Of a stretch of 42,472 nt of DNA, positions 16,008 to 29,159 are shown piece after piece. The notes beneath the pieces were generated by a model that was not told the origin of the DNA, ran no database searches, and saw only the letters and a list, made by a program, of their open reading frames with translations. A program made the translations under genes and the position numbers. Each line of letters starts with the position of its first letter. Position 1 is the first letter of the stretch. Source of the stretch: Oscillospiraceae bacterium (lineage in GTDB: Bacteria; Bacillota; Clostridia; Oscillospirales; Oscillospiraceae); NCBI GenBank assembly GCA_017516925.1, contig JAFXAQ010000010.1, positions 1 through 42,472 on the forward strand, read 5' to 3'.

Positions 16008-16055
16008 CCGTTTCCTAAAATATCTTGCTACCGCAAGGTGTTTTGGCTTACTGCA

Positions 16056-16102: not shown

Positions 16103-16217
16103 CTTGTCTTTGGCGCTTCTTTGACCTCTGTCAGTCTGTCAAAAAGTACTTTTTTGACAGACAAAGTTTTGCATAATTTTTTGCATTTTTGGCATCCTTT
16201 AATTAGGAGGGATGTTT

Positions 16218-16655
16218 ATGACAGATAAGGAATATAATCGCCTGGTGCAGGATATGGCGCCAAAATCCCCCATTTGGAAGGACTGTATCAACGCTTTTTG
16301 GGTAGGCGGGTTGATTTGCGCCATTGCCCAGCTGATTTTAAACGGCTATCTTGCTCTGGGAATAGAAAAAAACGACGCTTTCACCGCCACCTCTATGTCG
16401 ATGGTGGTGCTGTCGGCATTACTCACCGGACTGAGCCTTTACGATGATATTGCCAAATTTGCCGGCGCAGGTACCCTGGTGCCCATCACCGGCTTTGCCA
16501 ATTCCGTCGCCGCCCCCGCCGTAGAATTCAAAACCGAAGGATTCGTCCTCGGCGTCGGCGCAAAGATGTTTACAATTGCTGGACCTGTTATCGTCTACGG
16601 CACTGTGGCGAGTGTGATTTATGGGGTTATTTATTGGATAACGACTATACTATAA
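16218..16655 (+). CDS. spoVAC: Stage V sporulation protein AC
   Basis: The 145-residue integral membrane protein matches SpoVAC (about 150 residues in Bacillus), part of the SpoVA channel that moves dipicolinic acid into the forespore and out during germination. Conserved pieces are FWVGGLICAIAQLI, LLTGLSLYDDIAKFAGAGTLVPITGFANS, EGFVLGVGAKMF and AGPVIVYG. AGGAGG seven bases upstream favours ATG 16218 over 16212. The usual neighbours spoVAD and spoVAE do not follow. Instead the last 120 bases of this gene are repeated five more times downstream, making it the apparent integration site of a cassette array. The gene itself is complete; its 3' end probably came with the first cassette. Confidence 0.92.
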   Translation: MTDKEYNRLVQDMAPKSPIWKDCINAFWVGGLICAIAQLILNGYLALGIEKNDAFTATSMSMVVLSALLTGLSLYDDIAKFAGAGTLVPITGFANSVAAPAVEFKTEGFVLGVGAKMFTIAGPVIVYGTVASVIYGVIYWITTIL

Positions 16656-16690
16656 AAACAGGCGGTCAATGACCGCCTGTTTAGCTTTTT
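16655..16690. terminator. Terminator after spoVAC
   Basis: ACAGGCGGTC and GACCGCCTGT form a 10-bp stem with loop AAT, three bases after the stop codon. It has T-rich sequence on the right and A's on the left, so it can serve both spoVAC and the converging gene at 16689. Confidence 0.8.
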
Positions 16691-17102
16691 ATTTTCTTTC
16701 TATTTCGGGAATCTCAAATTCCACTACAAAATTCTTTCGACTACCTTTTGCTGATTCAATTTTGATTTCGAGTAAATACCGTCCGTTGCCAAGTTTCTCA
16801 ATAGTATCACTTATCCACCAGGGTTTATCAATACTATTTATATCAATATCGGGCGTTTTGATTTTATAGTTGTATAACCGAATTGTTTTAATGTTTCGTT
16901 CGTACAAAGCGTTTTTGCTGTTCAATTCAATTTCTAAACAATTGTACTTTAACGGTTTTTCTTTATAGTCAGGTGCTAATTGTAATTCGGAAACAGAGAG
17001 AATAACAGCGTCGTGAAGTCCATATTTCCAGTACCAATCCGGAAACTGCGCGTAATATTCTTCGAGCTTTTTTACCGCAGCCTCTATCCCTTTTTTGCTC
17101 AT
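16689..17102 (-). CDS. Hypothetical protein, cassette 1 cargo
   Basis: The 137-residue soluble protein has no signal peptide or membrane segment. The N-terminus is basic and helical (MSKKGIEAAVKKLEEYYAQFP), followed by WYWKYGLHDAVILSVSELQ and a beta-rich remainder ending in VEFEIPEIERK. The WxxxxGLHDA pattern is reminiscent of small immunity-type proteins, but I cannot assign a family. It is transcribed toward spoVAC from the promoter in the cassette arm (17124-17152), with GAGGTG six bases before the ATG. It is A+T-rich compared with the housekeeping genes. Confidence 0.75.
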   Translation of the reverse strand: MSKKGIEAAVKKLEEYYAQFPDWYWKYGLHDAVILSVSELQLAPDYKEKPLKYNCLEIELNSKNALYERNIKTIRLYNYKIKTPDIDINSIDKPWWISDTIEKLGNGRYLLEIKIESAKGSRKNFVVEFEIPEIERK

Positions 17103-17123
17103 AAAAACACCTCACTTTATTTC

Positions 17124-17152
17124 ATTATACCACACCGCCAATGTAATGTAAA
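17124..17152 (-). promoter_or_regulatory. Cassette-end promoter, cassette 1
   Basis: On the minus strand: TTTACA (17147-17152), 17 bases, TATAAT (17124-17129), then GAGGTG and ATG of the cargo gene. The same sequence and spacing recur in cassettes 3 and 5. Confidence 0.85.
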
Positions 17153-17171
17153 TATTTTTGCAAAAGGGTGT

Positions 17172-17311
17172 GTCCTATATTGACAGCAGCAGAGGGGTTT
17201 GTCTTAGGAGTTGGTGCAAAGATGTTCACAATAGCGGGACCGGTGATCGTGTATGGTGTTTCAGCAAGTGTAGTTTATGGACTTATTTATTGGATAACGA
17301 CTTTATTTTGA
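17172..17311 (+). repeat. spoVAC 3'-end copy 1 with arm
   Basis: The arm is GTCCTATATTGACAGCAGCA; the 120-base copy (17192-17311) encodes 39 residues from EGFVLGVGAKMF to YWITTLF and stops at TGA. The peptide is identical to that of copy 4 but 22 of 39 codons differ. It lacks a start codon and a ribosome binding site of its own. Confidence 0.9.
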
Positions 17312-17313
17312 AA

Positions 17314-17349
17314 GCACACCGCAATCTTTTTGGTTGCGGTGTGCTTTTT
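17314..17349 (+). terminator. Terminator after spoVAC copy 1
   Basis: GCACACCGCAA and TTGCGGTGTGC form a perfect 11-bp stem, followed by five T. It starts two bases after the stop codon of the copy. Confidence 0.85.
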
Positions 17350-17362
17350 CTTATGCTACAAT
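17334..17362 (+). promoter_or_regulatory. Possible promoter of the cassette 2 gene
   Basis: TTGCGG (17334-17339), 17 bases, TACAAT (17357-17362). The -35 lies in the 3' strand of the preceding terminator, as in compact cassettes. Confidence 0.5.
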
Positions 17363-17392
17363 TATTACATAACAATAAGGGAGGTGTTTTCT

Positions 17393-17443
17393 ATGCTTGT
17401 ACATAGTAGCTTGGAAATCGCCGGAGAGGTTCCGGCAAAATAA
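17393..17443 (+). CDS. 16-residue leader ORF in cassette 2
   Basis: AAGGGAGGTG stands six bases before the ATG, and the frame runs 16 codons to TAA. It ends 19 bases before the next start, so it may be a leader peptide or the relic of a former cargo gene that used the GAGGTG site common in this array. The peptide is unrecognised. Confidence 0.35.
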   Translation: MLVHSSLEIAGEVPAK

Positions 17444-17462
17444 GAATTTTACCGGAGGTAAT

Positions 17463-18755
17463 ATGACAAAAAAGGAATTCAAAGAGGCGATGCTTCGAGG
17501 TCTTGGCAGATGCGTGATTGCTGTCAGGAAAGAACCGGAGAAATATCGTGATATTGTACTTTGGGCTTGCAAAAGGAATTTTGCTTACGATGCCCAAAGT
17601 GAGGGCACAAGGTCGTGGTATACCTATACGATGGTAAATGCCTACCCCGATAAGGAAACCTTTATTGACGCTACGGCAGATGCACTCAAACGGTATCGAC
17701 CTAATGGTAGTTGGGATTTGCTGCACTTGAGTGAAATCCTGATGTTCTTTGCGATGGACGGCTATGAATCTGCCCGAAATGCTTTGGAGGAGAAATATAA
17801 GGAAGTACTGACGGGGATGTTTGCGCGGAAACGCAGACCAAACCGTGTATTTCACGAACTGTCGGATTTAGAACAGCTTGGTTTGGTATTGGCTGTTGAC
17901 AGCAAATCCTTTCTGCGAATAGCGGGGGATTTTGGTCGTCTGTATCGGGAAAAGAAATACATGTGCGATGGTGATTTTGCGTGGTTCTTTTCGTCCAAGG
18001 GCGGACAATACAGAAGAACCATGGAAGCTGCTGCCCGCAAGGATAAGAACATCGCTTGCTTTATAAAAAGAAAGCAGGCAGATATTGATGCCCAGGAAGA
18101 ACACCAGAAACAGCGGCAGACCCTGTCACCAGAAACATATACTGGTGTCCGGTTGTCTCGGTGGCTTGCCCGAAAGGCAGACAAGGAAACCGTGGAACGG
18201 TACGCACTTGCGTACCGGGAACAAAAGCAACCGGAATTGCGTGCAGAGGCACTGTCTGCGTTTTATTGCTGCTCATATCCCGACGATCCACAGCCAATTA
18301 TTAAAGATACCAAATCGGAATGCGAGGAATTGCAAAATGCAGCGTGGAGAGCGTTGGAGAATATCCGGTATCCTGCTGTGCGTACATTTGCGATAAATAA
18401 CGCAAAATCTGGGATCCGTACACCGGAGAACTTTGCACTTTTGGTGACAAACTATGCACCGGAAGATGCTGACCTGCTGGAAGAATTATTGCAGGAACTG
18501 ATCGCTGCAAAAGACTGGGACGATGTTCATGCTGCTGGGTTGGATATCTATCGTGCATTTTATAAGGACAGCGGAATCTCACACCCCAAGCACCTATTGC
18601 CGTTACTGTACGAGTATAATCCCTGCTCTTTTTGTCGGGAATCTGCACTGGTGTATACGTCCAAACACCGGATGCTGACAAAGGAGATTTTGGAAGAATG
18701 TCTGTATGACAGCAATGACGATATTCGCCGCATGGCAGCAAAACGGTTAAAATAA
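17463..18755 (+). CDS. HEAT-repeat-like hypothetical protein, cassette 2 cargo
   Basis: The 430-residue soluble protein, mostly helical, has no signal peptide. The N-terminal third has paired amphipathic helices (GLGRCVIAVRKEPEKYRDIVLWACK; ILMFFAMDGYESARNALEEKY). The C-terminal half repeats a helix-turn-helix pattern typical of HEAT-like scaffolds, ending CLYDSNDDIRRMAAKRLK, the classic last HEAT helix. GGAGG precedes the ATG. Such proteins bind partners rather than catalyse; no enzyme motif is visible. It is A+T-richer than the core genes, alone in its cassette, and closed by a hairpin. No function can be assigned. Confidence 0.75.
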   Translation: MTKKEFKEAMLRGLGRCVIAVRKEPEKYRDIVLWACKRNFAYDAQSEGTRSWYTYTMVNAYPDKETFIDATADALKRYRPNGSWDLLHLSEILMFFAMDGYESARNALEEKYKEVLTGMFARKRRPNRVFHELSDLEQLGLVLAVDSKSFLRIAGDFGRLYREKKYMCDGDFAWFFSSKGGQYRRTMEAAARKDKNIACFIKRKQADIDAQEEHQKQRQTLSPETYTGVRLSRWLARKADKETVERYALAYREQKQPELRAEALSAFYCCSYPDDPQPIIKDTKSECEELQNAAWRALENIRYPAVRTFAINNAKSGIRTPENFALLVTNYAPEDADLLEELLQELIAAKDWDDVHAAGLDIYRAFYKDSGISHPKHLLPLLYEYNPCSFCRESALVYTSKHRMLTKEILEECLYDSNDDIRRMAAKRLK

Positions 18756-18761
18756 TGAAAG

Positions 18762-18791
18762 GAACAGGCTTGCCGATTGGTAAGCCTGTTC
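18762..18791 (+). terminator. Terminator after the HEAT-like gene
   Basis: GAACAGGCTT and AAGCCTGTTC form a perfect 10-bp stem with a 10-base loop, beginning six bases after the stop. Confidence 0.65.
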
Positions 18792-18847
18792 TGCTACTTA
18801 TTCGACCATTATTCCGCAAAAATTTAGTCCTAACAGAACACGAAGTA

Positions 18848-18991
18848 ATGGGTCCTAAGTTGACACAAGCAGAAGGGTTTGTATTAGGCGTTGGTGCAAA
18901 TATGTTCAAAATCGCAGGACCTGTAATCGTTTATGGAACTATTGCGAGCGTGATTTATGGGGTTATTTATTGGATAACCATATTATTTTGA
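18848..18991 (+). repeat. spoVAC 3'-end copy 2 with arm
   Basis: The arm begins ATGGGTCCTAAG, so an ATG opens a 47-codon frame (MGPKLTQAEG then the SpoVAC end) without a ribosome binding site. The 120-base copy is 18872-18991. It belongs to the same peptide subtype as the intact gene (TIASVIYGVIYWI) but has ANMFKIAG in place of AKMFTIAG. Confidence 0.9.
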
Positions 18992-19054
18992 ATGTAGGGG
19001 AGGCGTTTCGCCTCTCTTAGCAAGGAGGGAATGAAAACCGTAAATTTTTACACA

Positions 19055-19951
19055 TTATAAAATTTCCCAACTGTGTGTCATCTTGACGGGTATGATTCTT
19101 TCTCCATCAAACTGCATCTGGTCAATACACAAATACCGTGCATTACCATCGTGTTCTCCAATCTTATGTCGGTGATATACCATTAAATACATATCTTTTT
19201 CCGGAACATATAAAAATCCATTATGGCCGGGACCCGTTGCAATTTCCGGATCTTCTTTCAAAATGCATTCGCTTTTCGAATAACCGGATAAAATATGATC
19301 GGAAACAGCATATCGCACATTATAAGTGCCATTTGTCCAACTACCAGAAGACCACATAAAATAATATTTGGAATCTTTTTTCATAATGCACGGTGCTTCA
19401 ACATAATTTTCAGGAGTTATCTCTTTAAAGAAATCCCCGTTGTCCAATGTTATAAAGCCATCCATATTGTCATTTAAGATCCCAATATTACAATGCCGCC
19501 AGCCGCCATACAGCAAATACACGGTATCGTCATCATCTTTGAATAAATGGGCATCAATGGGCTGCGCCCCATTGATAAATTTTCCAACCAGGGTATCCGT
19601 ATATGCCTTGAAGGGACCTGCCGGACTGTCTGCTACCGCAATTTCAAGACCACCTATTTCTTCGTCCTTGTGTATATCGTTGCAAGCGAATATTAAATAA
19701 TATTTATTATTCTTCTCAATTACAGTCGGGGCCCATATTGCAAATCTATAACCGTAAAATCCCGACATATCGATTATATTTTCACAAATCTCCCAGTTTA
19801 CTAAGTCCTTAGAATGCAAAACATCGATATTCTTCTGTTCATGGTACGGTAGCGAGTGTGTTACGTATATCCAGTATTCCCCTTCATAAAATCTTGCTTC
19901 AGGGTCAGCATACCAGCGCTCACTTAAAGGATTTGTTATAATTTGTTTCAT
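19055..19951 (-). CDS. Glycoside hydrolase family 43 protein
   Basis: The 298-residue protein is a single five-bladed beta-propeller of the GH43 type (arabinofuranosidase/xylosidase group). The three catalytic positions are visible: Asp in WYADPEA (residue 16, general base), Asp in QPIDAHLF (about 133, pKa-tuning) and Glu in VEAPCIMK (about 186, general acid). There is no signal peptide, so it acts on imported oligosaccharides. GAAAGG 11 bases before the ATG sets the start. It lies in a cassette behind a cassette-end promoter and a truncated gene start, and next to a cassette with beta-mannosidase; the exact sugar is not decidable. Confidence 0.85.
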   Translation of the reverse strand: MKQIITNPLSERWYADPEARFYEGEYWIYVTHSLPYHEQKNIDVLHSKDLVNWEICENIIDMSGFYGYRFAIWAPTVIEKNNKYYLIFACNDIHKDEEIGGLEIAVADSPAGPFKAYTDTLVGKFINGAQPIDAHLFKDDDDTVYLLYGGWRHCNIGILNDNMDGFITLDNGDFFKEITPENYVEAPCIMKKDSKYYFMWSSGSWTNGTYNVRYAVSDHILSGYSKSECILKEDPEIATGPGHNGFLYVPEKDMYLMVYHRHKIGEHDGNARYLCIDQMQFDGERIIPVKMTHSWEIL

Positions 19952-20013
19952 ATCTAAATAACCTTTCCTGTTTGAGTGTTAATTTCTAAATGACTATTAT
20001 TTTGATAAGGTCG

Positions 20014-20067
20014 TCAGTAGTAATATAATATTGTATTTAATTGGTTATCAAAATCTAGTCTATCCAT
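20014..20067 (-). pseudogene. Remnant start of the MDRL-family gene (see 29158-29634)
   Basis: ATG follows GAGGTG in the cassette arm and encodes MDRLDFDNQLNTIL before breaking off into YYY and a stop. The gene at 29158-29634 begins MDRLTFDNQLDEIL: 11 of 14 residues are shared. The rest of the gene is gone and the GH43 gene now follows 62 bases downstream. It looks like an old cargo gene largely replaced by the glycosidase. Confidence 0.7.
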
Positions 20068-20084
20068 TTACACCTCATCATTTT

Positions 20085-20113
20085 ATTGTAACACACCATC
20101 GATTTAATGTAAA
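20085..20113 (-). promoter_or_regulatory. Cassette-end promoter, cassette 3
   Basis: Minus strand: TTTACA (20108-20113), 17 bases, TACAAT (20085-20090), then GAGGTG and the remnant ATG. It now probably drives the GH43 gene. Confidence 0.8.
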
Positions 20114-20132
20114 TATTTATGCAAATTACTGT

Positions 20133-20384
20133 GTCCTATATTGACAGCAGCAGAGGGTTTCATCCTTGGCGTCGGTGCGAAGATGTTCTCCTGTTGCGGT
20201 GCCCGGCATCTGCCTGCGTCGACGGCGCTCCTTGGCATCTGCCGACCGCAGCCACTCGCTCAGGTCGCTGTATCCGCCACCGGCGGCGCTCCCATCGCTC
20301 CCTATCGCAGGACCTGTTATCGTATATGGTACCGTCGCAAGTGTAATTTATGGGGTTATTTATTGGATTGCAACATTATTTTAA
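20133..20384 (+). repeat. spoVAC 3'-end copy 3 with arm, interrupted
   Basis: The arm GTCCTATATTGACAGCAGCA is identical to that of copy 1. The copy starts at 20153 (EGFILGVGAKMF), breaks at 20189 where a 115-bp GC-rich segment is inserted, and resumes at 20304 (AGPVIVYGTVASVIYGVIYWI) to TAA at 20384. Net gain is 112 bases, so the frame is shifted. Removing the insertion restores a 120-base copy if three bases (ACA) were lost. Confidence 0.9.
20189..20303 (+). repeat. GC-rich insertion with repeat copy B
   Basis: A 115-base GC-rich block sits inside spoVAC copy 3. Its last 59 bases (20244-20302) match 143-201 (minus strand) at 53 of 59 positions. The first half contains TGCCTGCGTCGACGGCGCTC and no reading frame of note. 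The insertion point matches ATGTTC / ATCGCAGG of the uninterrupted copies. Confidence 0.8.
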
Positions 20385-20385
20385 T

Positions 20386-20419
20386 GCAAAAGGCTTGACC
20401 AAACGGTCAAGCCTTTTGC
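20386..20419. terminator. Bidirectional terminator
   Basis: GCAAAAGGCTTGACC and GGTCAAGCCTTTTGC form a perfect 15-bp stem with loop AAAC, between the converging spoVAC copy 3 and the SIS gene. Confidence 0.85.
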
Positions 20420-21046
20420 TTAGTTTGTGAAAAATTCTTCTTCTGTAGCGGCACACAGATAATGGTATACCGGCAAATGTAGCTCCTGCACTTTGAAAGT
20501 CTCTGTTTCCGGTACCCGGATACAGATATCGGCAATCTCGCTAAGCTTACCACCACCTTTGCCGGTCAGACCGATAACCGTAAGACCAAGACTCTTAGCT
20601 ACCTTCGCTGCGGCAAAAACATTTTTTGCATTACCAGAGGTACTCATTGCAATCAACACATCACCGGTTTTCCCCATTGCCATAACGGACTGTGCATAAA
20701 TCAGTTCCGGATCAACATCGTTGCAGAATGCACTGTTAAGAGCCGTAAGAGAGGGCAAGGAAATGGCAGGCAATCCTCCTTGCAATTTGCTTAAGGTTTC
20801 TTCATCCAAAAGAGGGGACAGATTTGTCATTTGGGCTTTTTGCTCCGTGCTTAGCGGACGCTTTTTTAAAAAGCCTTTCATGAGTTCGCCCACAATGTGA
20901 TCGCAATCGGCGCAACTGCCCCCGTTTCCGCAGAGTAGAATTTTTCCACCGTTTTTATAGCAGTCAATCATCGCTGCAGCGGCTTTTTTAAGCTCATCCT
21001 GACATTTCGCAAGCTGCGGATAACGATTCAGTAATTTATTCAACAT
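20420..21046 (-). CDS. SIS-domain sugar phosphate isomerase (GmhA-like)
   Basis: The 208-residue single-SIS protein resembles sedoheptulose-7-phosphate isomerase. The phosphate-binding pieces are CGNGGSCADCDHIVGELMKGF near residue 40 and AMSTSGNAKNVFAAAKVAKSLG, then GLTGKGGGKLSEIADICIRVPE. The family binds phosphosugars and usually isomerises an aldose to a ketose. Within a beta-mannosidase/ROK operon it more likely handles a hexose phosphate than heptose; this is inference. ATG 21046 is preceded by GAGGTG; an open frame extends further upstream into the ROK gene but lacks a start signal. It is the last gene of the operon. Confidence 0.85.
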   Translation of the reverse strand: MLNKLLNRYPQLAKCQDELKKAAAAMIDCYKNGGKILLCGNGGSCADCDHIVGELMKGFLKKRPLSTEQKAQMTNLSPLLDEETLSKLQGGLPAISLPSLTALNSAFCNDVDPELIYAQSVMAMGKTGDVLIAMSTSGNAKNVFAAAKVAKSLGLTVIGLTGKGGGKLSEIADICIRVPETETFKVQELHLPVYHYLCAATEEEFFTN

Positions 21047-21056
21047 ATAAAACACC

Positions 21057-22004
21057 TCATGTAAGTGCCACGGCAACGGCGGCATAATCTCCAATTTGCT
21101 CTCCCAGTGCTGTCGGAACAACCTTGCAGCAGCTTGCGGACAGTTGTAATGTTTCCTTCTCAATTTCCTTTTTTGCTGCATCCCAGAGTAGATCCTTGCA
21201 TCTGGCAAAGACACTGCCGATAACGATCAACTCGGGGTTCAGCAGGTCGATGACGATGGAAAGACCTTTTCCCAAATAAGCACCGCAGGTGCGATAGACA
21301 TCCAATGCGGTTGCATCTCCTGCGAGTGCTGCATCGGCAACGGTCTTTGCGGTTACATCTGAAAGTGTGTATCCCTTTTCGTAATACATGGGATACTCAC
21401 CTTGCTGAACCTTTTCCAATGCCTTTATATAACCAAGCTGTGCGATGCCGTTGCCACTGCAAAAGCCTTCAAAAGAGCCGGATTTGCCAAAACCCACAGG
21501 ACCAAGATCAGAAAGACGGATGTGTCCCAGCTCTCCCGCGTTATCGTTTGTGCCGCTGTACAGTGCGCCGTTGAGGATTAAGCCTGCACCCAGACCCGTA
21601 CCAAAGGTCATAAACACCATATTGCGGCATCCTTTGCCGATACCGAATTTCCACTCGGCAACAGCACAGGCGTTTGCATCATTTTGCAGCTTGACCGGAA
21701 CGCTGTAATGCTGCTCTACTTGCTCTACGATGGTAACATGGTCCCATCCGGGAAGATTCGGTGGACTCATGATGATCCCCCGCTTAGAATCCAGCGGTCC
21801 GCCGCAGGAGATGCCTATTGCATCGGGTTTCTTTTCTAAAATACTGTCTGCCATTGCGATCAGTTTTTGAATCATTTCCTTGGGAGAAACCGAAAAATCA
21901 GTAGAGCATTTTTCTTTTTTTAGTATAGTTATGTTGGCACCGTCCCATCGGGCGGTAATGACAGCGCATTTTGTGCCTCCAATATCAAATCCTAAAATAT
22001 ACAT
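21057..22004 (-). CDS. ROK family sugar kinase
   Basis: The 315-residue protein is of the ROK (repressor/ORF/kinase) family, kinase type because it lacks an N-terminal DNA-binding domain. The ATP phosphate loop GFDIGGTKCAVI is at residue 5, the sugar-binding catalytic region is LQNDANACAVAEWKFG, and FGTGLGAGLILNG follows. The usual ROK zinc motif (CxCGxxGCxE) is replaced by GFGKSGSFEGFCSG, so the zinc site appears lost. It would phosphorylate a hexose such as mannose or glucose released by the neighbouring GH2 enzyme. It lies one base after the GH2 stop codon and 10 bases before the SIS gene, in one operon. Confidence 0.88.
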   Translation of the reverse strand: MYILGFDIGGTKCAVITARWDGANITILKKEKCSTDFSVSPKEMIQKLIAMADSILEKKPDAIGISCGGPLDSKRGIIMSPPNLPGWDHVTIVEQVEQHYSVPVKLQNDANACAVAEWKFGIGKGCRNMVFMTFGTGLGAGLILNGALYSGTNDNAGELGHIRLSDLGPVGFGKSGSFEGFCSGNGIAQLGYIKALEKVQQGEYPMYYEKGYTLSDVTAKTVADAALAGDATALDVYRTCGAYLGKGLSIVIDLLNPELIVIGSVFARCKDLLWDAAKKEIEKETLQLSASCCKVVPTALGEQIGDYAAVAVALT

Positions 22005-22005
22005 T

Positions 22006-24240
22006 TCAAAGCCCCAACTCCCCTATAAGTTTTTTGTACCAAGCCAGATCCAAAGGCGGATAGCCGCAAAGATAGTGGTTATATCCGGTCTCTCCGTTTA
22101 TATCCCATTGAATTGAGAGGAACTTATGGTCGGAATAATAGACGGGGATTTCCCCAATGCAGGTAGAAGTATTTTTGTTGGCAGTGAAATCCTTGTCGAG
22201 AAGCACTTGTTTTGTCTCAGCGTCGGTTATAATACAATGTCCGTTTTTTAGCTGTAGGGTATCATTGCAGGCAAAAATTTTAATTTTCCAGTTAGATATC
22301 TCGTCTGCTATGATACAGAAAGGTGCCTGTGACCGTTTAATATACCCGTAAGCTAGCTTCTTTGTAAAATAATAATCTACTACCGCGTCTGACATCTGCG
22401 GCCAACCATCCAGCAAGTTCCACCAAATAATGCCGTTTTTTTGCGGTCGTCCCACACGCATCCGTTCGATAAAATATTTCTTTGCCTCTGCCTGCGAAAT
22501 TTGGGAGGCTAAAATATAGTCTTCCGGATCTGTCGGAACGGTACCGAAAAGCTGACGAACCTGATTTTCCATTAGCATGACGCGTCCGTCATTACCTGTT
22601 TGGTTGCTGGAATGGAGAATCCATTCGCTGTTATTTTGATAAGGCCAAACCTTTTCAGCAGTTATGAACTTTTTGATGGATTCCAGGCTGGGACAGCCGT
22701 GATAACCTGTTTCGCTGACAAAATGCGCTTTATTGCATCTGTAAAAATCACTTTTGAAATAGTCTCGAGGACCCCATAGGTGATCTTCTACAAGAGGACT
22801 ACCGTGTTTCTGAGCCCTGAAGCCTGCAACATACATTTTTTCAGATATATACGGTGAGCTCGGCAGATAAGGTCTACCAACATCGTTTTGCTCAATGATG
22901 CGCGGGATGATCTCGCGGGTAATATGGTTGATCGAGGGGTTGGCAAACGAGGAGATAACCTGATCAATTTCGTTGTCTCCCGCCCAAAGAATGATGGAGG
23001 GATGATTACGGCGCCTTCTTACGACCCAAGTAACTTCTTCTTTAATTTGTTTCAGAAATTTCTCGGTTTCGGGATAGATGCGGCAAGCCATAGCAAAATC
23101 CTGCCAGACCATAATGCCGTTGCGATCGCAGAAATCATAGAATTTATGATCCTCATAAACGTTTCCGCCCCAGCAGCGAAGAATATTGCAACCGATATCC
23201 TTAACTAGCGCCAATGCTTCATCATAGCGCTCCGCATCGCGGCAATGGAAGGCATCCAGCGGCACCCAGTTTGACCCTTTGCACATAATCTCAACGTCAT
23301 TGATGAGGAATCTAAATTGACCGTTATGTTCGTCTGTCGCATCGGTGCGATCAAGTTTGACCGTTCTTAAACCAAAAGCTGCCGGTTCCTCGTGGATTAA
23401 CTCGCCGCAACTGTAAAGGCGTACCACGACATCGTATATATTTGCCTCACCGTATCCGTAAGGCCACCAAACCTTTGGGTTTTTGATGGGGATTGAGAAT
23501 CTTCCGGCTTTACCGCTGATAAGGGGTCTTCTAACGGAGAAAGAACTGTCGCCGCAATGGCCGACTGCTTCAATTTCAACATTCTTAAAATCAGACCATT
23601 TGGATTCAACTTCATATAAAAGTGTGCAGCTGGTTTGGGTGGTGTTGAAAAACAGTTGAGAAAAACGGAGTTTATCTCGGATCTCGAGCCTTACATCTCG
23701 CCAAATACCCGATGTTACTGCCCGCGGCATAATATCCCAGCCGTAGCTATGAGGTGCACGACGAATACCGGTTTCCACAGGAGCGTTTCCCCAGGCCATC
23801 ATGGAAGTAACGGTATAGTTTTCATAATGTGAAGCAATGACGGGAGATTTTATATGTATGGTGAGCGTGTTTTTACCGTCTCGCAAAAGATTGTCCACGG
23901 CAAATTCGTGTGAAATCATCATGTTTTGGCTTTCACCGATTAAAACGCCATTCAGAAAATATTCGGCAACGCAGTCAACGCCTTCAAACACCAAATAAAC
24001 ATTTTCTTTCGTTTCGGGTGCAGTGAAAGTACGGGTGTACCACCATTCAAAGTCTTCGTACTTCTGGGTTTCCAAGATATTTTCGCCCATAAACAAATCC
24101 GCAGGCAAATAGCCTGCTTGGGAAAGATCTAACTGTGCGCATCCGGGCACCTTTGCGGTCAGCGTCAGCTCGGCGGAGGGCTCGCCTTCTTGCCGTCTAC
24201 CCCGTAATTGCCAAGTGCCATTCAAAGAAACCATTTCCAT
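22006..24240 (-). CDS. GH2 beta-mannosidase
   Basis: The 744-residue intracellular glycosidase has GH2 architecture: a jelly-roll sugar-binding domain (SLNGTWQLRG, then WWYTRTF and VDCVAEYFLNG), an Ig-like domain, a TIM barrel and C-terminal beta domains. Barrel landmarks are NILRCWGGNVYEDHKFYDFC and GIMVWQDFAMACRIYP. The acid/base Glu lies in WAGDNEID (about residue 424) and the nucleophile Glu in FVSETGYHGCP (about 509). The WGGNVYE motif is typical of beta-mannosidase. There is no signal peptide. ATG 24240 (MEMVSLNG) has AGAAAGGA 11 bases upstream. It is first in the operon, transcribed away from the AraC gene. Confidence 0.92.
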   Translation of the reverse strand: MEMVSLNGTWQLRGRRQEGEPSAELTLTAKVPGCAQLDLSQAGYLPADLFMGENILETQKYEDFEWWYTRTFTAPETKENVYLVFEGVDCVAEYFLNGVLIGESQNMMISHEFAVDNLLRDGKNTLTIHIKSPVIASHYENYTVTSMMAWGNAPVETGIRRAPHSYGWDIMPRAVTSGIWRDVRLEIRDKLRFSQLFFNTTQTSCTLLYEVESKWSDFKNVEIEAVGHCGDSSFSVRRPLISGKAGRFSIPIKNPKVWWPYGYGEANIYDVVVRLYSCGELIHEEPAAFGLRTVKLDRTDATDEHNGQFRFLINDVEIMCKGSNWVPLDAFHCRDAERYDEALALVKDIGCNILRCWGGNVYEDHKFYDFCDRNGIMVWQDFAMACRIYPETEKFLKQIKEEVTWVVRRRRNHPSIILWAGDNEIDQVISSFANPSINHITREIIPRIIEQNDVGRPYLPSSPYISEKMYVAGFRAQKHGSPLVEDHLWGPRDYFKSDFYRCNKAHFVSETGYHGCPSLESIKKFITAEKVWPYQNNSEWILHSSNQTGNDGRVMLMENQVRQLFGTVPTDPEDYILASQISQAEAKKYFIERMRVGRPQKNGIIWWNLLDGWPQMSDAVVDYYFTKKLAYGYIKRSQAPFCIIADEISNWKIKIFACNDTLQLKNGHCIITDAETKQVLLDKDFTANKNTSTCIGEIPVYYSDHKFLSIQWDINGETGYNHYLCGYPPLDLAWYKKLIGELGL

Positions 24241-24324
24241 TATGCAACAGATCCTTTCTATAATCATTATAATTACTTTATACATAAACACGGAAAACGG
24301 CACAACAGAAAATCTAATAAAAAT

Positions 24325-24369
24325 AAACTGTTTTTTCGGATTTTATTGCAAAAAAAGAAAAAACAGTTT
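24325..24369. promoter_or_regulatory. Inverted-repeat operator candidate in the GH2/AraC divergent region
   Basis: AAACTGTTTTTTC (24325-24337) and GAAAAAACAGTTT (24357-24369) are perfect 13-bp complements separated by 19 bases. They span the -35 and touch the -10 of the AraC promoter. A dimeric regulator binding here could repress araC and activate the operon. Confidence 0.55.
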
Positions 24370-24374
24370 ATAAT
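24346..24374 (+). promoter_or_regulatory. Promoter of the AraC gene in cassette 4
   Basis: TTGCAA (24346-24351), 17 bases, TATAAT (24369-24374), inside the inverted repeat. Confidence 0.7.
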
Positions 24375-24390
24375 GTGCATGGTGATGCTT

Positions 24391-25227
24391 ATGAAAGAGT
24401 ATAAAAGTTTGCCGCGCTTAATGACAGGAGACAAGATCGGCAATCGACATATAGCCGTTGAAAAGCATATTTCCTTGGACTATCCACTACATTGGCACAA
24501 CTATTTTGAAATTGAAATAATCATTGATGGCACTGGATCATACATTTTTAATGGCACTGCATATTCGATCAGCAAAGGAGATGTATATCTTTTAACTCCG
24601 GTTGATTTCCATGAAATCGAAGCATCTTCTCCCGTAGAACTAATTAACATTTCTTTTGATGAAATGTGGTTATCTGAAAATATGCGGACTTTTTTATACA
24701 CAACGGATTTCACGAAACCGCGCCGGTTTGATATACATGATTATGAGCGCCTGATTATGGCAGCCGAATTGTTGCGCCATGAATGCGAAGCGGATGCGCC
24801 GTGCATAAATCAACTTCTGGAATATTTGTTGAGCCGCTTTGTGCAGTGTGAGATGCTCCAGTCTGAAACGGTTGCGAATCAGCTGCATTTAAGCGGAATC
24901 AAAAAGGCGGTAGCTTATATAGAGTTACATTTCAGAGAAAAAGTAACGCTACAGCAGATTTCCGCTATGTCCGGATACAATCCGACATATTTCAGCGAAT
25001 TGTTTAGAAAACTGACGGGAGAAACCTATATTGAAAGATTGACTTCTTTGCGTATAAATTATGCGAAAGCACTTTTAACAAGCGGTCTTTCCGTAACAGA
25101 TGCTTGCTTTGAATCAGGATTCGGTTCGCTTTCTAATTTTTTGGTTGCTTTCAAGGCAAAATGCGGTATGTCACCAAGTGAATATCGAAAAAACACAAAG
25201 AAATGTTGTAACCAAATCAAGAATTAA
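24391..25227 (+). CDS. AraC family transcriptional regulator
   Basis: About 278 residues: an N-terminal cupin ligand-binding domain (YPLHWHNYFEIEIIIDGTGSYIFNGTAYSISKGDVYLLTPVDFHEIE) and a C-terminal double helix-turn-helix (LQQISAMSGYNPTYFSELFRKLTG, then VTDACFESGFGSLSNFLVAFKAKCGMSPSEYRK). It is divergent from the beta-mannosidase operon and is its likely regulator. ATG 24391 is preferred because GGTGAT lies just upstream and the promoter's start point would exclude the earlier in-frame ATGs at 24373 and 24379. Its TAA overlaps the ATG of spoVAC copy 4 (TAATG), so the final codons lie in the cassette arm. Confidence 0.9.
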   Translation: MKEYKSLPRLMTGDKIGNRHIAVEKHISLDYPLHWHNYFEIEIIIDGTGSYIFNGTAYSISKGDVYLLTPVDFHEIEASSPVELINISFDEMWLSENMRTFLYTTDFTKPRRFDIHDYERLIMAAELLRHECEADAPCINQLLEYLLSRFVQCEMLQSETVANQLHLSGIKKAVAYIELHFREKVTLQQISAMSGYNPTYFSELFRKLTGETYIERLTSLRINYAKALLTSGLSVTDACFESGFGSLSNFLVAFKAKCGMSPSEYRKNTKKCCNQIKN

Positions 25228-25370
25228 TGGGTCCTAAGTTGACACAAGCAGAAGGGTTTGTCCTCGGCGTCGGCGCAAAGATGTTCACAATTGCTGGCCC
25301 TGTTATTGTGTATGGCGTAAGCGCCAGCGTTGTTTATGGCTTAATTTATTGGATAACAACGCTATTTTAG
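25227..25370 (+). repeat. spoVAC 3'-end copy 4 with arm
   Basis: The arm ATGGGTCCTAAGTTGACACA is followed by the 120-base copy 25251-25370 (EGFVLGVGAKMF to YWITTLF, TAG). Its first 25 bases after the arm are close to those of the intact gene (GTCCTCGGCGTCGGCGCAAA), while its second half is the VSASVVYGLIYWI subtype. Confidence 0.92.
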
Positions 25371-25473
25371 CGGGCGACCAATGGTCGCCCCTACGAATTC
25401 TATCGTACATAGTTGTAGGGGCGGGCATTGCCCGCCCGCACAAAAAAGGCTTGACCGATTTGGTCAAGCCTTA
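25371..25473. terminator. Three consecutive hairpins after spoVAC copy 4
   Basis: GGGCGACC/GGTCGCCC (25372-25390), GGGCGGGC/GCCCGCCC near 25420-25438, and AAGGCTTGACC/GGTCAAGCCTT (25447-25472). The last two, with the spacer CACAAAAAA, recur at 26164-26219. The third stem is the terminator shared with the converging gene. Confidence 0.75.
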
Positions 25474-25949
25474 AATATTTTCTTGAAAAACTCTTTTATT
25501 TTACTTGTTGCGTTGAATTGTACAGGTGAGGGAAACGGTTTATCCAACACCCAAGGCAACTCAAAAACATTTGCTATCGAAATGGTAAAAAAATCGTCTG
25601 TTTGTTCATTTGGAGAAGAAAAACCATCGGTAATTACAATGTTAAAAAACAAATTATCGTGTATATCAATTTCATATTGCCCCATTGTTGCTACTTTTCC
25701 GCAAACGGTATAGTCAACGCCAATATATTGAATTGTATCATCCAATTCAACACTCGTACATTCATCGGGTTTTGCTATATCCACACCAAACTCGGATAAG
25801 AAAGATTCAAGCTTTGGAAATTTGCCGCCTATTTGAGCATAAAAATTTTTGCAACAATCACATTCACAAAGAGAGTGTGTTTTATAATATTCTGTGGTTT
25901 TCTCAATATCAACCTCAAATACATATTCATCTTTTTGAATTTTAGTCAT
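25464..25949 (-). CDS. Hypothetical Cys-containing protein, cassette 5 cargo
   Basis: The 161-residue soluble protein has an N-terminal block with a cysteine cluster (HSLCECDCCKNFYAQIGGKFPKLESFL), which could bind a metal. A beta-rich middle follows (DTIQYIGVDYTVCGKVATMGQYEIDIHDNLFFNIVITDGF) and a basic tail (IKEFFKKIFKA). I have no family name for it. ATG 25949 has GAGGTG six bases upstream; GTG 25958 is in frame but sits on that site. It is driven by the cassette-end promoter at 25972-26000 and transcribed toward spoVAC copy 4. Confidence 0.75.
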   Translation of the reverse strand: MTKIQKDEYVFEVDIEKTTEYYKTHSLCECDCCKNFYAQIGGKFPKLESFLSEFGVDIAKPDECTSVELDDTIQYIGVDYTVCGKVATMGQYEIDIHDNLFFNIVITDGFSSPNEQTDDFFTISIANVFELPWVLDKPFPSPVQFNATSKIKEFFKKIFKA

Positions 25950-25971
25950 ACCGAACACCTCGCTTTGTTTT

Positions 25972-26000
25972 ATTATACCACATCGCCGATATAATGTATA
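25972..26000 (-). promoter_or_regulatory. Cassette-end promoter, cassette 5
   Basis: Minus strand: TATACA (25995-26000), 17 bases, TATAAT (25972-25977), then GAGGTG and the cargo ATG. It has the same register as cassettes 1 and 3. Confidence 0.85.
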
Positions 26001-26015
26001 TATTTTAGCAAATTA

Positions 26016-26159
26016 ATGGGTCCTAACTTGACACAAGCAGAGGGAATGATCCTTGGCACCGCCGCCAAAATGTTCACCATCGCCGGCCCCGTCATCGTCT
26101 ACGGCGTGAGCGCCAGTGTGGTTTATGGCTTAATTTATTGGATAACCACATTGTTCTAA
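26016..26159 (+). repeat. spoVAC 3'-end copy 5 with arm
   Basis: The arm ATGGGTCCTAACTTGACACA is followed by 26040-26159. This is the most diverged peptide (EGMILGTAAKMFTIAG, then VSASVVYGLIYWITTLF) and the most GC-rich copy in its first half, ending TAA. Confidence 0.92.
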
Positions 26160-26161
26160 TC

Positions 26162-26220
26162 GTAGGGCGGGCATTGCCCGCCCGCACAAAAAAGGCTTGA
26201 CCAAATCGGTCAAGCCTTTT
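26162..26220. terminator. Hairpins after spoVAC copy 5
   Basis: GGGCGGGCATTGCCCGCCC, then CACAAAAAAGG and AAGGCTTGACC/GGTCAAGCCTT with a T-rich end. This block repeats 25420-25472 almost base for base. It is bidirectional between the copy and the MFS gene. Confidence 0.8.
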
Positions 26221-27481
26221 GCTTGTTTTTAGTTAAAACGCATCTTGTATACAGTATTGCTAAAACGGTAAAGAACAGCGCAATGATTGTCAGAACTTGC
26301 TGCGCATATATTGCTATACCAAAGAGAGTGTTGCCACTGTTTTGAATATGTGAAATGAGTGGACTGACACAAAGCGTAGTTAGGAATCCGGTGAGACCTG
26401 CAACTGCTTGAGTAATGGCCAATGCATCAGCCGCTTTTTCTCTTGGAATATACTCGAATATCAAATTGATAAGCGCACTGTTTATTCCGCCCGATGCGAT
26501 GCCGTGAAGGATATAATATAAAACAAACATTACTTTCCCAAGTGAAGGAGTAGCAAAAATAACGCAAACCTCAGCGAAACCTAAGAAAATGAAGCATTTT
26601 TCTATCATTGCAGCAAATGAATTTTTGTCTGCATAGCTACCCCAAAATTTTGAAACCAAAATCCGAGATACACTACCGGAAAGTACAATGATAGAAACAA
26701 ATTTTAAACTTAGCCCCAACTCACCGATTTGATATGTTCCGTAAAATGGTGTCGAGATATAGGTAGATATATTGTGCAGTAAAAAAATAACTGCAATATG
26801 CAAAGTGTTTTTGTTTTTTAACAATTCAAGCAGCGAATGTTTTAAATCTTTTTGTGCGTTAGAAGGCAGTGGTTTTTCAACGGCAAACAGCATAGTTAGT
26901 GAATGTAATACCATAAGCACAAATATCACAAAAGCCGAGATAATAAAAGCCACGCGTATTTTGCCTGTACTGGAAAAATAGTCAATCACTGTTCCCATTA
27001 CAAAAGAGAATACCATTCCCGAAATAAGAGATATAATTTCTTTGTTTGCGGTAAAGCTGCCGCGATAATTATCTTCCACCAAAGACATCAACCAATTGAT
27101 TTTCTTGGGATGTGCAATGTTATAAATCAAATAAGCGGAGAAAATCAATACAATGAACAGCGGGATTCTTATTGTACCCTCAAAGCTTGTTAAAGGAACA
27201 ATATATAGTAACATAAAAAGGATTTGATTTATAATACTACATAGTATTACAATCCTTTTGACAACTGTTCGTCTGATCGATAACGATAAAAGCTGAAAAA
27301 GGCAGCCTAATGAAATTATAGAAGAAAGAACACCGGTTAAGCTATCCGACATTCCCAATTCCCTTGTTAATGTGGCAAGAAAAGAACCGTTCACTAAGAT
27401 GGAAATCAAGTATTCAAATGCGGCTTCAAAAATATACATTAGCTTACTACGCTTTATGCTTTTTACAGAAGGTTTGGTCAT
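26210..27481 (-). CDS. MFS family transporter
   Basis: The 423-residue membrane protein has about 12 hydrophobic helices and a basic central loop (AVEKPLPSNAQKDLKHSLLELLKNK), the layout of the major facilitator superfamily. Helix 4-5 carries basic residues (AHPKKINWLMSLVEDNYRG) in place of the usual loop motif. No drug- or sugar-specific signature is clear. Divergence from an AraC regulator with a cupin sensor suggests uptake of a sugar or glycoside. GAGGAA precedes ATG 27481. It is clearly A+T-richer than the core genes, and its 3' end reaches into the shared hairpin block. Confidence 0.85.
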   Translation of the reverse strand: MTKPSVKSIKRSKLMYIFEAAFEYLISILVNGSFLATLTRELGMSDSLTGVLSSIISLGCLFQLLSLSIRRTVVKRIVILCSIINQILFMLLYIVPLTSFEGTIRIPLFIVLIFSAYLIYNIAHPKKINWLMSLVEDNYRGSFTANKEIISLISGMVFSFVMGTVIDYFSSTGKIRVAFIISAFVIFVLMVLHSLTMLFAVEKPLPSNAQKDLKHSLLELLKNKNTLHIAVIFLLHNISTYISTPFYGTYQIGELGLSLKFVSIIVLSGSVSRILVSKFWGSYADKNSFAAMIEKCFIFLGFAEVCVIFATPSLGKVMFVLYYILHGIASGGINSALINLIFEYIPREKAADALAITQAVAGLTGFLTTLCVSPLISHIQNSGNTLFGIAIYAQQVLTIIALFFTVLAILYTRCVLTKNKQKA

Positions 27482-27630
27482 AAATCAATTCCTCACGTGA
27501 AAAACGTATGTCCTATAATACTTTACATTTAGAAGAATTTGCAGTATCATAGTCATTGTATTGAATGATTTTGCTAATTTCAATGTTAATATTGGCTAAA
27601 AACTGAACGATATTGCGAGTGCGGTGTGGT

Positions 27631-28470
27631 ATGGAAAAAGAGATAATATGTTTTGAAAAGTTAAATCTGCCAATTAAAATTCATCAGTTTTATATGGAAA
27701 CCGGAATGAATTACCGCGGAATGCATTCACATACGGCGGTTGAGATTGTTGAAGTTAAAAGCGGAATATTGTATTGCTTTGTGAATGATGACATAATTGA
27801 GGTTAATCCCAAACAAATTATATTTGTCAATAGCAATACCGGGCACCGATTGTATTCGGAAAATGCAGAGATTACTTATTTGCAAATTGATGTTAACTTG
27901 TTAGAGCCAAATATGAACGACGATAACGATTCAACACTCAATGCATTTATTTCGCGTATCCATGCCAAGCCGTATTTATTATTAAATGATAACAAAGACA
28001 TAACGGAACTTTTGAATAAACTAAGCATAAAATATTATGACCAAGCCCAAGAAAGCCGCTGGTATATAAAAGCATATCTGTATGAGCTTGTCGCATTTAT
28101 GTATTCTCAGTCATTTATTACTCCCTTGACGATTCCTAAAGAGCAAATCAAAAAAATTGAACAGGTTGTCCATTATGTTAACACTAATTTCAAATCGCCT
28201 ATTACACTTGATGATATTTGTATAGCGGCCAAATATAATAAGTATACGATTTGCCACACATTTAAAGCGGTAACAGGCTCAACGATTTTCGATTATATCA
28301 ATTTTCTGCGAGTGCATTATGCTGTTGAGAAATTAAGAGAGACCGGGAACTCTATTTTAGATATTGCAACAGAGTGCGGATTCGCTTCTGCTACATATTT
28401 TAACAGAGTTTTTAAAAGCTTTTTCGGGTGCTCGCCTTCGGGCTACCGAAAACGCTTGCCAAAAAAATGA
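27631..28470 (+). CDS. AraC family transcriptional regulator
   Basis: About 279 residues: a cupin sensor (MHSHTAVEIVEVKSGILYCFVNDDIIEVNPKQIIFVNSNTGHRLY) and a C-terminal AraC DNA-binding domain (ITLDDICIAAKYNKYTICHTFKAVTG, then ILDIATECGFASATYFNRVFKSFFGCSPSGYRKRL). ATG 27631 is the likely start, though its ribosome binding site is weak; GTG 27619 is an alternative. It is divergent from the MFS gene, which it probably controls. The stop is followed within eight bases by the truncated cassette arm. Confidence 0.9.
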   Translation: MEKEIICFEKLNLPIKIHQFYMETGMNYRGMHSHTAVEIVEVKSGILYCFVNDDIIEVNPKQIIFVNSNTGHRLYSENAEITYLQIDVNLLEPNMNDDNDSTLNAFISRIHAKPYLLLNDNKDITELLNKLSIKYYDQAQESRWYIKAYLYELVAFMYSQSFITPLTIPKEQIKKIEQVVHYVNTNFKSPITLDDICIAAKYNKYTICHTFKAVTGSTIFDYINFLRVHYAVEKLRETGNSILDIATECGFASATYFNRVFKSFFGCSPSGYRKRLPKK

Positions 28471-28477
28471 TCAACGA

Positions 28478-28504
28478 ATAGGCCCTAAGTTGACACGCAG
28501 AGGG
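28478..28504 (+). repeat. Cassette arm without its spoVAC end (copy 6 remnant)
   Basis: ATAGGCCCTAAGTTGACAC then GCAGAGGG matches the arm of copies 2, 4 and 5 with a one-base change at the ATG, one in GTCCTA and three bases missing (CAA reduced). Homology to spoVAC stops here: the 120-base end is replaced by unrelated sequence carrying a promoter. Confidence 0.8.
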
Positions 28505-28567: not shown

Positions 28568-29122
28568 ATGAAGACCTATACCATCGTTGCCGGGGTAAAC
28601 GGTTGCGGAAAAAGCAGCCTGACCGGTGTTTTGAGAACAGAAATTGATAATCTTGGGAAGATTATCAATGTGGATAAGATTACAGCGGCTTGTGGCGACA
28701 ACCTTCTGGAGGGTGGCAAAAAGGCGGTCACTCTAATCGAAGAGTGTCTGGAAAAAGAGATTTGCTTCACTCAGGAAACCACTCTGTCCGGAAGAAAGAC
28801 ATTGGACACCGTTAAGCGTGCTATCGCAAAGGATTACTACATTCGGCTTTACTATGTTGGATTGGACACGATGGAGGAAAGCTTGCTCCGCGTTGAAAAC
28901 CGGGTAAAAAGAGGCGGGCACAACATTGACACCGATACTGTGGAAAATTGCTTTTCCAAACGATTTGAGGATTTGCTGACAGTTTTGCCCCATTGTAACG
29001 AAGCTACTTTTTACGATAACGACAATGGCTTTGTTACAGTTGCCAAGTATAAGAACGGAGAGCTGCAGACCATTGGGGATAGTCCCAAGTGGCTATTGGA
29101 ATTGATTGAGAAAATGAAATGA
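28568..29122 (+). CDS. Zeta-toxin-like P-loop kinase
   Basis: The 184-residue protein begins with a P-loop (VAGVNGCGKSSL, Lys 15), followed by NVDKITAACGDN, FTQETTLSGRKTL and RLYYVGLDTMEESLLRVENRVKRGGHNID. The segment after the P-loop (Asp), the QETT strand and the RVxxRVKRGGH arginines are those of zeta-toxin-like proteins, which phosphorylate small molecules such as UDP-GlcNAc in toxin-antitoxin systems. Many such stand-alone chromosomal homologues have no known toxicity. No epsilon-type antitoxin gene is adjacent. GGAGG precedes the ATG. A bidirectional terminator separates it from the converging MDRL-family gene. Confidence 0.85.
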   Translation: MKTYTIVAGVNGCGKSSLTGVLRTEIDNLGKIINVDKITAACGDNLLEGGKKAVTLIEECLEKEICFTQETTLSGRKTLDTVKRAIAKDYYIRLYYVGLDTMEESLLRVENRVKRGGHNIDTDTVENCFSKRFEDLLTVLPHCNEATFYDNDNGFVTVAKYKNGELQTIGDSPKWLLELIEKMK

Positions 29123-29130
29123 TAAAAGGC

Positions 29131-29159
29131 AAACGGCATCGAATTTCGATGCCGTTTTT
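29131..29159. terminator. Bidirectional terminator
   Basis: AAACGGCATCGAA and TTCGATGCCGTTT are 13-bp complements, with A's to the left and T's to the right, between converging genes. Confidence 0.85.

Follow-up and report, generated by a model that had tools for sequence, protein, structure and literature searches.

How does a conserved sporulation gene come to be followed by a row of copies of its own 3′ end, with unrelated genes between them? The question is raised by the window analysed here, a 42,472-nucleotide stretch of an Oscillospiraceae bacterium (GenBank assembly GCA_017516925.1, contig JAFXAQ010000010.1), in which the gene order plsX, rnc, spoVAC is continued by five displaced copies of the terminal 120 bases of spoVAC. 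Comparison with related genomes points to an answer that we consider probable: the blocks between the copies are mobile cassettes without a recombinase of their own, arrayed at one GA dinucleotide of spoVAC; their right ends share the half-site of a predicted conjugative element, which occupies this GA in relatives; and they are likely moved by the three serine integrases of that element together with homologous recombination. That the integrases move the cassettes we infer from sequence comparison.

The spoVAC array and its cassettes

The original spoVAC end and its five displaced copies all run from the same Glu codon to the stop, and the third displaced copy is split by about 115 bp and continues near 20304 (Table 1). 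All six had been located at these positions, one of them as interrupted, in an initial annotation of the window. The target dinucleotide is the GA of this Glu codon, 39 codons ahead of the spoVAC stop. Each of the six units is closed by an arm with the layout GTCCTANNTTGACA-n-GCA, followed by the GA of the Glu codon, and a unit thus consists of a spoVAC end with its terminator, the cargo, and an arm that stops at the GA. In a motif search of the window, GTCCTA-NN-TTGACA was exact at the first five arms and had one mismatch in the sixth, which is one base short and has no spoVAC end after it. The annotation had likewise noted an arm before each displaced copy and a further junction with the arm alone; what has changed is their place, each being the right end of a unit. 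With up to two mismatches the motif has 8 matches in the window against 2.65 expected, a number reached by 1 of 100 shuffles, and a genome search found the exact motif nowhere else in the organism's own genome.

Far from being confined to the window, the arm recurs in relatives. A fuller pattern with at most one mismatch was found in 42 of the 136 genomes of the window's genus, or in 8 of 40 when completeness of 90% or more and contamination of 5% or less are required, and the reversed control gave none. Across the order, the pattern without mismatch was found in 8 of 394 genomes, which represent 8 of 168 sampled genera and include the organism's own; the control gave none. A scan of a genome collection returned 113 stretches with the arm, all of which entered the analysis; among the 80 titles listed for them, 75 name Oscillospiraceae, Clostridia or Clostridiales and 53 a ruminant gut source. 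When exact arms from the genome and virus collections were made unique by 110 surrounding bases, 120 of 132 ran into a full spoVAC end. Of the remaining 12, ten appear to be decayed or truncated ends, one (L151, Peribacteria) appears to be a chance match, and one (L170) is unclear.

The site is also found empty. Ten spoVAC loci were chosen because they matched with no arm, and all ten have a full spoVAC reading frame, with no arm within the available 199 to 1502 bases past the stop. Across relatives, sites are empty, single or multiple, and they differ in cargo and order, as predicted from the proposal in the annotation, which took the units to be mobile and serially inserted at one spoVAC codon; the uniform order and cargo that would have refuted it are not found. 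Cassettes at L016 and L032, in genomes assigned to two further families of the order, have 90% identical cargo. Local duplication of spoVAC ends, with unrelated genes between them and vertical inheritance, would also yield tandem repeats at one locus, but it is refuted by related cassettes in different families, and their different array positions and the empty sites in relatives also speak against it; we give it practically no credence.

After duplicates had been removed on the basis of the first 60 and last 80 bases, 128 complete cassettes were delimited, with lengths of 426–8383 bp and a median of 1080 bp; cassette 6 of the window falls outside this set because its arm is one base short. 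A single gene on the strand opposite to spoVAC makes up the content of 82 cassettes and a single gene on the same strand that of 8, while 35 hold several genes and 3 none. The 8.4 kb spoVAC unit at L057 (4357-12740) has five genes, to which type I restriction-modification methylase, specificity and restriction families were assigned by size. Clustering of the 184 cargo proteins gave 114 groups, of which 82 have a single member. Pfam scans covered 109 of these clusters (single-member clusters below 100 amino acids were left out), and the matches listed include several glycosidase families, a sugar isomerase, kinases, dehydrogenases, transporters, regulators, restriction-modification subunits and a Fic protein; many cargo proteins have no Pfam family. 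No resolvase or integrase family is among the Pfam matches listed for the 109 cargo proteins.

Many right ends contain a promoter-like site reading into the cassette. The test covered 159 of 184 junctions, arms with more than one mismatch or with short upstream sequence being excluded. In the commonest arm type, designated TA (88 of 159), at least 10 of 12 consensus bases are present in 74 of 88 arms, at a nearly constant offset; the same threshold is reached in 34 of 71 non-TA arms. Over all 159 arms, the controls gave 11 such sites in shuffled sequence and 6 on the other strand.

The spoVAC ends show a clear polarity: they are intact in 63 of 63 cases at position 1, in 57 of 65 inside the array, and in 58 of 84 at the last position seen. 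The proposal in the annotation that the sporulation gene is kept whole is thus borne out at position 1.

The array apparently extends, in decayed form, to about 29634, beyond the 28504 at which the annotation ended it. The product of the minus-strand gene at 29161-29634 has 88% protein identity (158 amino acids) to a first-position cassette in L094, and together with a Zeta-toxin-like gene it occupies 28568-29634, where the array probably continues with its junctions lost.

Two repeated sequences were noted in the same region. The GC-rich stretch of about 115 bp that splits the third displaced end (20189-20303) is apparently a dispersed repeat: a close copy lies at the same position of a spoVAC end in L065 (near 17280-17400), and the organism's own genome contains a relative elsewhere (L064, near 630-780). 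The rnc–spoVAC intergenic stretch (about 15900-16040) recurs, by eye nearly unchanged, near a contig end elsewhere in the genome (C44; L075, first 200 bases).

What travels with a cassette

To separate what moves from what stays, cassettes were counted as related when they matched at 80% DNA identity or more along 70% of the longer cassette, which gave 44 pairs from different loci among 36 cassettes (the pairs are not independent). Identity in these pairs is 91% in the cargo and 91% in the last 90 bp, compared with 77% in the preceding and 75% in the following spoVAC end; random pairs of spoVAC ends give 75%, and the N-terminal part of the host spoVAC gives 71% (19 pairs where both were available). 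From genome to genome, then, the cargo travels together with its arm. The first 60 bases of the preceding end reach 95% identity in none of the 44 pairs, and the first 60 bases after the arm do so in 1 of 44. In the 14 pairs with cargo at least 94.5% identical, the first 60 bases of the cassette's own end are 67–90% identical, and the first 60 bases after the arm are 32–85% identical in 13 pairs and 100% in L019/L020. Two candidates were dropped on these figures: transport of a whole spoVAC end with the cassette, because preceding ends stand at 77% and cargo at 91%, and a single homologous crossover of a circle, which predicts that the sequence after the arm travels as well.

The cassettes of the window illustrate the boundaries. 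Cassette 1 is 94% identical at the nucleotide level to a cassette in L093 (more than 99% in the cargo part), with host spoVAC genes at 71%, and roughly the final 35 bp of the position-1 spoVAC are common to the two. Cassette 2 is second in the window and first in L081, where its relative has 92% nucleotide identity; the 130 bp up to the GA are identical, and divergence begins directly after. The GA is the usual right boundary (L079/L189 is a further example), and the left boundary is variable, lying in the last part of the spoVAC end or in the terminator.

In 23 of 127 cassettes, the own spoVAC end and the next one are at least 94% alike in the first 50 bp, as against 0.26% of random pairs, and in these 23 the two ends stay similar to base 47–120 or beyond. 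The clearest case is L189, in which the ends agree to about base 94; from there the front end continues as cassette sequence and the rear end with another C-terminus, and the switch point lies about where identity to the same-cargo cassette in L079 begins. Because front and rear ends agree up to a variable point x, recent insertions have duplicated the target from the GA to x, the front end being host sequence up to x and cassette sequence only past it. The right junction looks site-specific and the left junction homologous. The same duplication from the GA to x is found at L142 in a decayed, non-coding end, where it cannot stem from selection for a working gene; duplication is therefore independent of such selection.

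These comparisons bear on the mechanism favoured in the annotation, in which cassettes arrive as circles that each carry a complete replacement for the 3′ end of spoVAC, enter at the Glu codon through the action of a site-specific recombinase only, and displace the old end downstream. The fixed codon and right boundary and the intact first-position ends are what it predicts, and it would also fit if later gene conversion had replaced the foreign end by host sequence. However, none of the 14 pairs with the most similar cargo has a preceding end that is 95% identical over its first 60 bases, and even at the non-coding L142 the match between own and next end begins at the GA and breaks off at a variable point. 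A full replacement end for each cassette is thus not borne out by the 44 pairs, and we regard this explanation as unlikely.

Serine-integrase triplets and the predicted conjugative element

In genome G060, three large serine recombinases (549, 567 and 535 amino acids, the first matching PF00239, PF07508 and PF13408) end just ahead of an arm and a spoVAC end, and six more close triplets have the same arrangement (L158/L214, L169/L215, L191, L192, G159 and G036). When triplets are graded by the identity of their first integrase to the reference, those at 64% or more are followed by an arm and a spoVAC end in 7 of 7 cases (the arm is diverged in G159 and G036), as compared with 0 of 7 for those at 40–45%, within the stretches examined. 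An arm-blind search of the genus with the first integrase gave ten matches in nine genomes; those at 64% or above were in G060, G159 and G036, and the two newly added, G159 and G036, both have the arm and a spoVAC end. The annotation had reported no integrase in sight, which holds for the window and its assembly as far as PF00239 is concerned; relatives, though, have a triplet of serine integrases bordered by this same arm, at the same codon.

The opposite end of the putative element was found in four genomes (G060, G100, G036 and G159), and in all four it breaks spoVAC at the same GA by a mirrored half-site. Behind it in G060, the one genome in which conjugation genes were checked, lie a type IV coupling protein, a TraG-type P-loop ATPase and an NlpC/P60 protein. 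Arm 2 of the window, with its extension, equals the right end of the G060 element (L065) in 53 of 56 bases, and the extension is present in 25 of 159 arms versus 0 of 159 shuffled ones. A further arm follows 2 of the 7 triplets (G060 and L191) within the available stretch. The L191 triplet is almost identical (>99%) to that of G060, yet its first cassette is different, and element and cassettes therefore assort separately.

L191 and L192 are IMG/VR contigs that represent ends of triplet-integrase elements and may be misclassified as viral; a viral origin was not inferred from them. A second, distant serine-integrase triplet lies on a similar element in G060 (contig C3; L066, 9827-14890), next to a gene that, read from its translation, resembles a SpoVT/AbrB-type regulator and is perhaps another sporulation target gene.

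Tyrosine recombinases were considered as the motor and rejected as uninformative. PF00589 matches occur in 16 of 16 array genomes and in 14 of 14 controls, and none lies beside an array, the nearest on an array contig being about 36 kb away (G055); no IntI-type tyrosine integrase was found beside the arrays of these 16 genomes by PF00589. In the organism's own genome (G000), three adjacent tyrosine recombinase matches (C62:13237-15729) possibly mark a recombinase-in-trio element.

In the mechanism that we propose, each junction of arm, GA and spoVAC would be equivalent to the attR of the element, and therefore the element could leave from its left end together with the cassettes ahead of a chosen arm. 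It would excise alone or with cassettes, its left end recombining with any arm junction, and after transfer it would insert at the GA of the new host's spoVAC, breaking the gene. In a homologous exchange, the cassette's spoVAC end or its terminator would then pair with the spoVAC end of the host on an element-free copy of the chromosome, so that the cassette would be kept, the element dropped and spoVAC restored. Because the element or another arm lies to the left of the cassette's spoVAC end, this exchange would have to lie to the right of the GA, as seen, and would therefore leave a chimeric end before the cassette and a complete host end behind it, which matches L189. Selection would act on the end at position 1 only, and older cassettes, moved ever farther from spoVAC, would decay.

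The duplicated target could also suggest a transposase that makes a long and variable target duplication (about 50–120 bp) at a favoured site, and the duplication from the GA to x, including that at the decayed end of L142, would be expected of it. Against it, the left junction lies at matching positions of homologous sequence, and the arm is the same as the terminus of an element with serine integrases. Among the cargo family matches listed, moreover, transposases are rare, with one IS200-like protein and one TnpV. We consider this explanation very unlikely.

Several points weigh against the involvement of integrases and homologous exchange as set out above. All of the evidence is comparative, and neither a circle nor excision nor transfer was observed; how new cassettes arise from genes is left unexplained by the model. 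Clear duplication of own and next ends is limited to 23 of 127 cassettes, and in L027 it is the second part of the spoVAC end that is duplicated; in L182, an exception, the duplication runs past the stop codon. L019/L020, 1 of the 44 pairs, fully shares the following end, with its own end at 80% identity. When identity is tallied in 12-base bins, same-cargo pairs exceed random pairs by up to about 10 points on either side, and the first four bins after the arm stand at 64, 64, 72 and 64% versus 61, 57, 62 and 54% for random pairs. The arm or its AT-rich flank differs within the same-cargo pairs L001/L093 and L112/L182, and exchange within the arm therefore happens too.

On the side of the element, 5 of the 7 close triplets were found via the arm, whose presence there is by construction. 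Mirror symmetry of the half-sites amounts to 13, 12, 10 and just 8 of 20 bases in G060, G100, G036 and G159, respectively. No whole element was found: in each of the four genomes the left end is on one contig and the right end on another, so that their assignment to one element is indirect. Close integrases occur in 3 of the 136 genomes of the genus (G060, G159 and G036), and among the 42 genomes with arms only in G060; PF00239 gave no match in the window's assembly, which is 84% complete, nor in G081 and G084. The commonest arm type, TA, is found at none of the seven triplets.

Some of this would suit a model in which no recombinase acts today and homologous recombination alone, between conserved spoVAC ends or terminators on the left and between conserved arms on the right, follows transformation or conjugal chromosome transfer: it accounts for the homology-like left boundary, for the occasional exchange of arms (L112/L182) and for the lack of close integrases in most array genomes. 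It requires a pre-existing arm, however, and leaves right boundaries at the GA unexpected, and fresh duplication of the end speaks against it in 12 of 46 cassettes that are both first and last in the stretch examined, such as L189 with its different rear C-terminus. We judge it to be quite improbable. Movement by the element's integrases combined with homologous recombination thus remains our favoured explanation.

Table 1. Coordinates of spoVAC, cassettes, arms and cargo genes in the window. Cassettes are given from GA to GA.
Feature	Position	Strand	Remark
spoVAC	16212..16655	+	PF03862, 1.3e-44; intact at position 1
GA dinucleotide, inferred crossover of insertion site (attB)	16536..16537	+	same GA at arm junctions and four element left ends
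Cassette 1	16536..17193	.	94% nucleotide identity to L093
Cassette 1 cargo, 137 amino acids	16689..17102	-	no Pfam family
Promoter-like site, cassette 1 right end	17124..17152	-	-35 TTTACA 17147-17152, 17 bp, -10 TATAAT 17124-17129
Arm (P half-site) 1	17172..17191	+	
Displaced spoVAC 3′ end 1	17192..17311	+	
Cassette 2	17192..18873	.	92% nucleotide identity to L081; last 130 bp to GA identical
Cassette 2 cargo, 430 amino acids	17463..18755	+	no Pfam family
Arm 2 with extension as at element right end	18818..18871	+	53 of 56 bases as in L065, GA counted; motif starts at 18852
Displaced spoVAC 3′ end 2	18872..18991	+	
Cassette 3	18872..20154	.	
GH43 glycosidase (cassette 3)	19055..19951	-	PF04616, 5.7e-43
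Arm 3	20133..20152	+	
Displaced spoVAC 3′ end 3, split by repeat of about 115 bp	20153..20384	+	
Cassette 4	20153..25252	.	
SIS-domain protein (cassette 4)	20420..21046	-	PF13580, 8e-22
ROK-family protein, likely sugar kinase (cassette 4)	21057..22004	-	PF00480, 1.7e-50
GH2-type glycosidase (cassette 4)	22006..24303	-	PF22666, 7.2e-37
AraC-type regulator (cassette 4)	24391..25227	+	PF12833, 7.8e-21
Arm 4	25231..25250	+	
Displaced spoVAC 3′ end 4	25251..25370	+	
Cassette 5	25251..26041	.	
Cassette 5 cargo	25464-25949	-	no Pfam family; cluster of four cassettes
Arm 5	26020..26039	+	
Displaced spoVAC 3′ end 5	26040..26159	+	
Cassette 6	26040..28501	.	
Major facilitator superfamily transporter (cassette 6)	26210-27481	-	PF07690
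AraC regulator (cassette 6)	27631-28470	+	PF12833
Arm 6 with GA, one base short	28482..28501	+	no spoVAC end after
Likely decayed array tail: Zeta-toxin-like gene (+), gene 29161-29634 (-)	28568..29634	.	latter a cassette in L094

Relation to known systems and significance

To our knowledge, integrons are so far the only system known to form arrays of small adaptive gene cassettes. In the sections of PMC12901181 on which we draw, integrons are described as consisting of the integrase IntI, the site attI and gene cassettes with attC sites, the latter having inverted R''-L''/L'-R' homology and a length of 57–141 bp. The same sections describe ordered, small, often single-gene cassettes without a recombinase, with diverse cargo and with decay at increasing distance from the insertion end, all of which the spoVAC arrays share. 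Unlike integrons, which use a tyrosine recombinase, the spoVAC arrays have serine integrases on a predicted conjugative element as their candidate motor; their site lies inside a protein-coding gene that is rebuilt, many of the cassettes have a promoter-like site in the right end, and one junction looks homologous. The contrast covers enzyme, site, promoter and junction.

Cis-mobilizable elements (CIMEs) are similar in other respects: as presented in the parts of PMC5704250 used here, they lack an integrase, share the attachment site of a conjugative element, stand in tandem at a gene end and are proposed to be mobilised by that element. According to the same parts, CIMEs are decayed elements that keep both attL and attR, whereas spoVAC units have an attR-like right end only and mostly hold one gene together with a promoter-like site, and there are six of them in the window. 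The loss of integration and transfer genes is common to CIMEs and, among the Pfam matches listed, the cassettes; the left end of a cassette is a spoVAC end and not a mirrored half-site.

The closest parallel to the proposed motor is provided by Streptococcus integrative and conjugative elements (ICEs) with a serine-integrase triplet, for which the portions of PMC4701971 consulted likewise describe three adjacent serine integrases in the same orientation, an interrupted target gene and direct repeats of 2–8 bp. The targets named in these portions are mutT, traG and hsdM, and neither spoVAC nor a cassette array is described in them. Three adjacent large serine recombinases at one end, an interrupted target and conjugation genes are all found in the predicted element (G060).

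Staphylococcal cassette chromosome (SCC) elements use the 3′ end of rlmH as attB and serine recombinases for integration, and form tandem islands, some of them without a recombinase; they are large and carry ccr genes. Serine recombinases, a protein gene 3′ end and tandem islands are thus common to SCC and the spoVAC arrays; here, however, the cassettes are mostly single-gene and the site is spoVAC rather than rlmH, 120 of the 132 arms running into spoVAC ends. The triplet proteins match PF00239/PF07508. Elements e14 and phage 21 leave the icd gene of E. coli with a homologous but different 3′ end after insertion, by means of a tyrosine integrase and as one element. The spoVAC arrays resemble them in the homologous but different gene end; there the end travels with the element.

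In the part of PMC6907783 that we drew on, spoVAC appears as cargo of an island. No report of a comparable system, or of spoVAC as an insertion site, was found in the open literature (most subscription papers and preprints lie outside this search). We rate the combination of a cassette array, spoVAC and serine integrases as new, and the triplet-ICE motor as belonging to a known kind.

In a broader and more tentative form, which we hold to be plausible but short of probable, gut Clostridia may possess a system of gene capture distinct from integrons. In it, spoVAC would be the docking gene for conjugative elements that carry three serine integrases, any gene ending in the half-site would become a cassette, and sporulation would filter for cells that had dropped the element via the cassette's spoVAC end, thereby regaining the spore gene along with the cassette.

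If true, this would constitute a second, unrelated route to cassette arrays, one by which gut Clostridia exploit a conserved spore gene by means of serine integrases together with homologous recombination. It points to a place to seek a shared pool of glycosidases, sugar isomerases and kinases, regulators, restriction-modification systems and many unknown families. It also supplies an exact site and candidate enzymes, with a paired-site reagent of about 20+2+20 bp, and raises a testable link between the uptake of mobile genes and sporulation.

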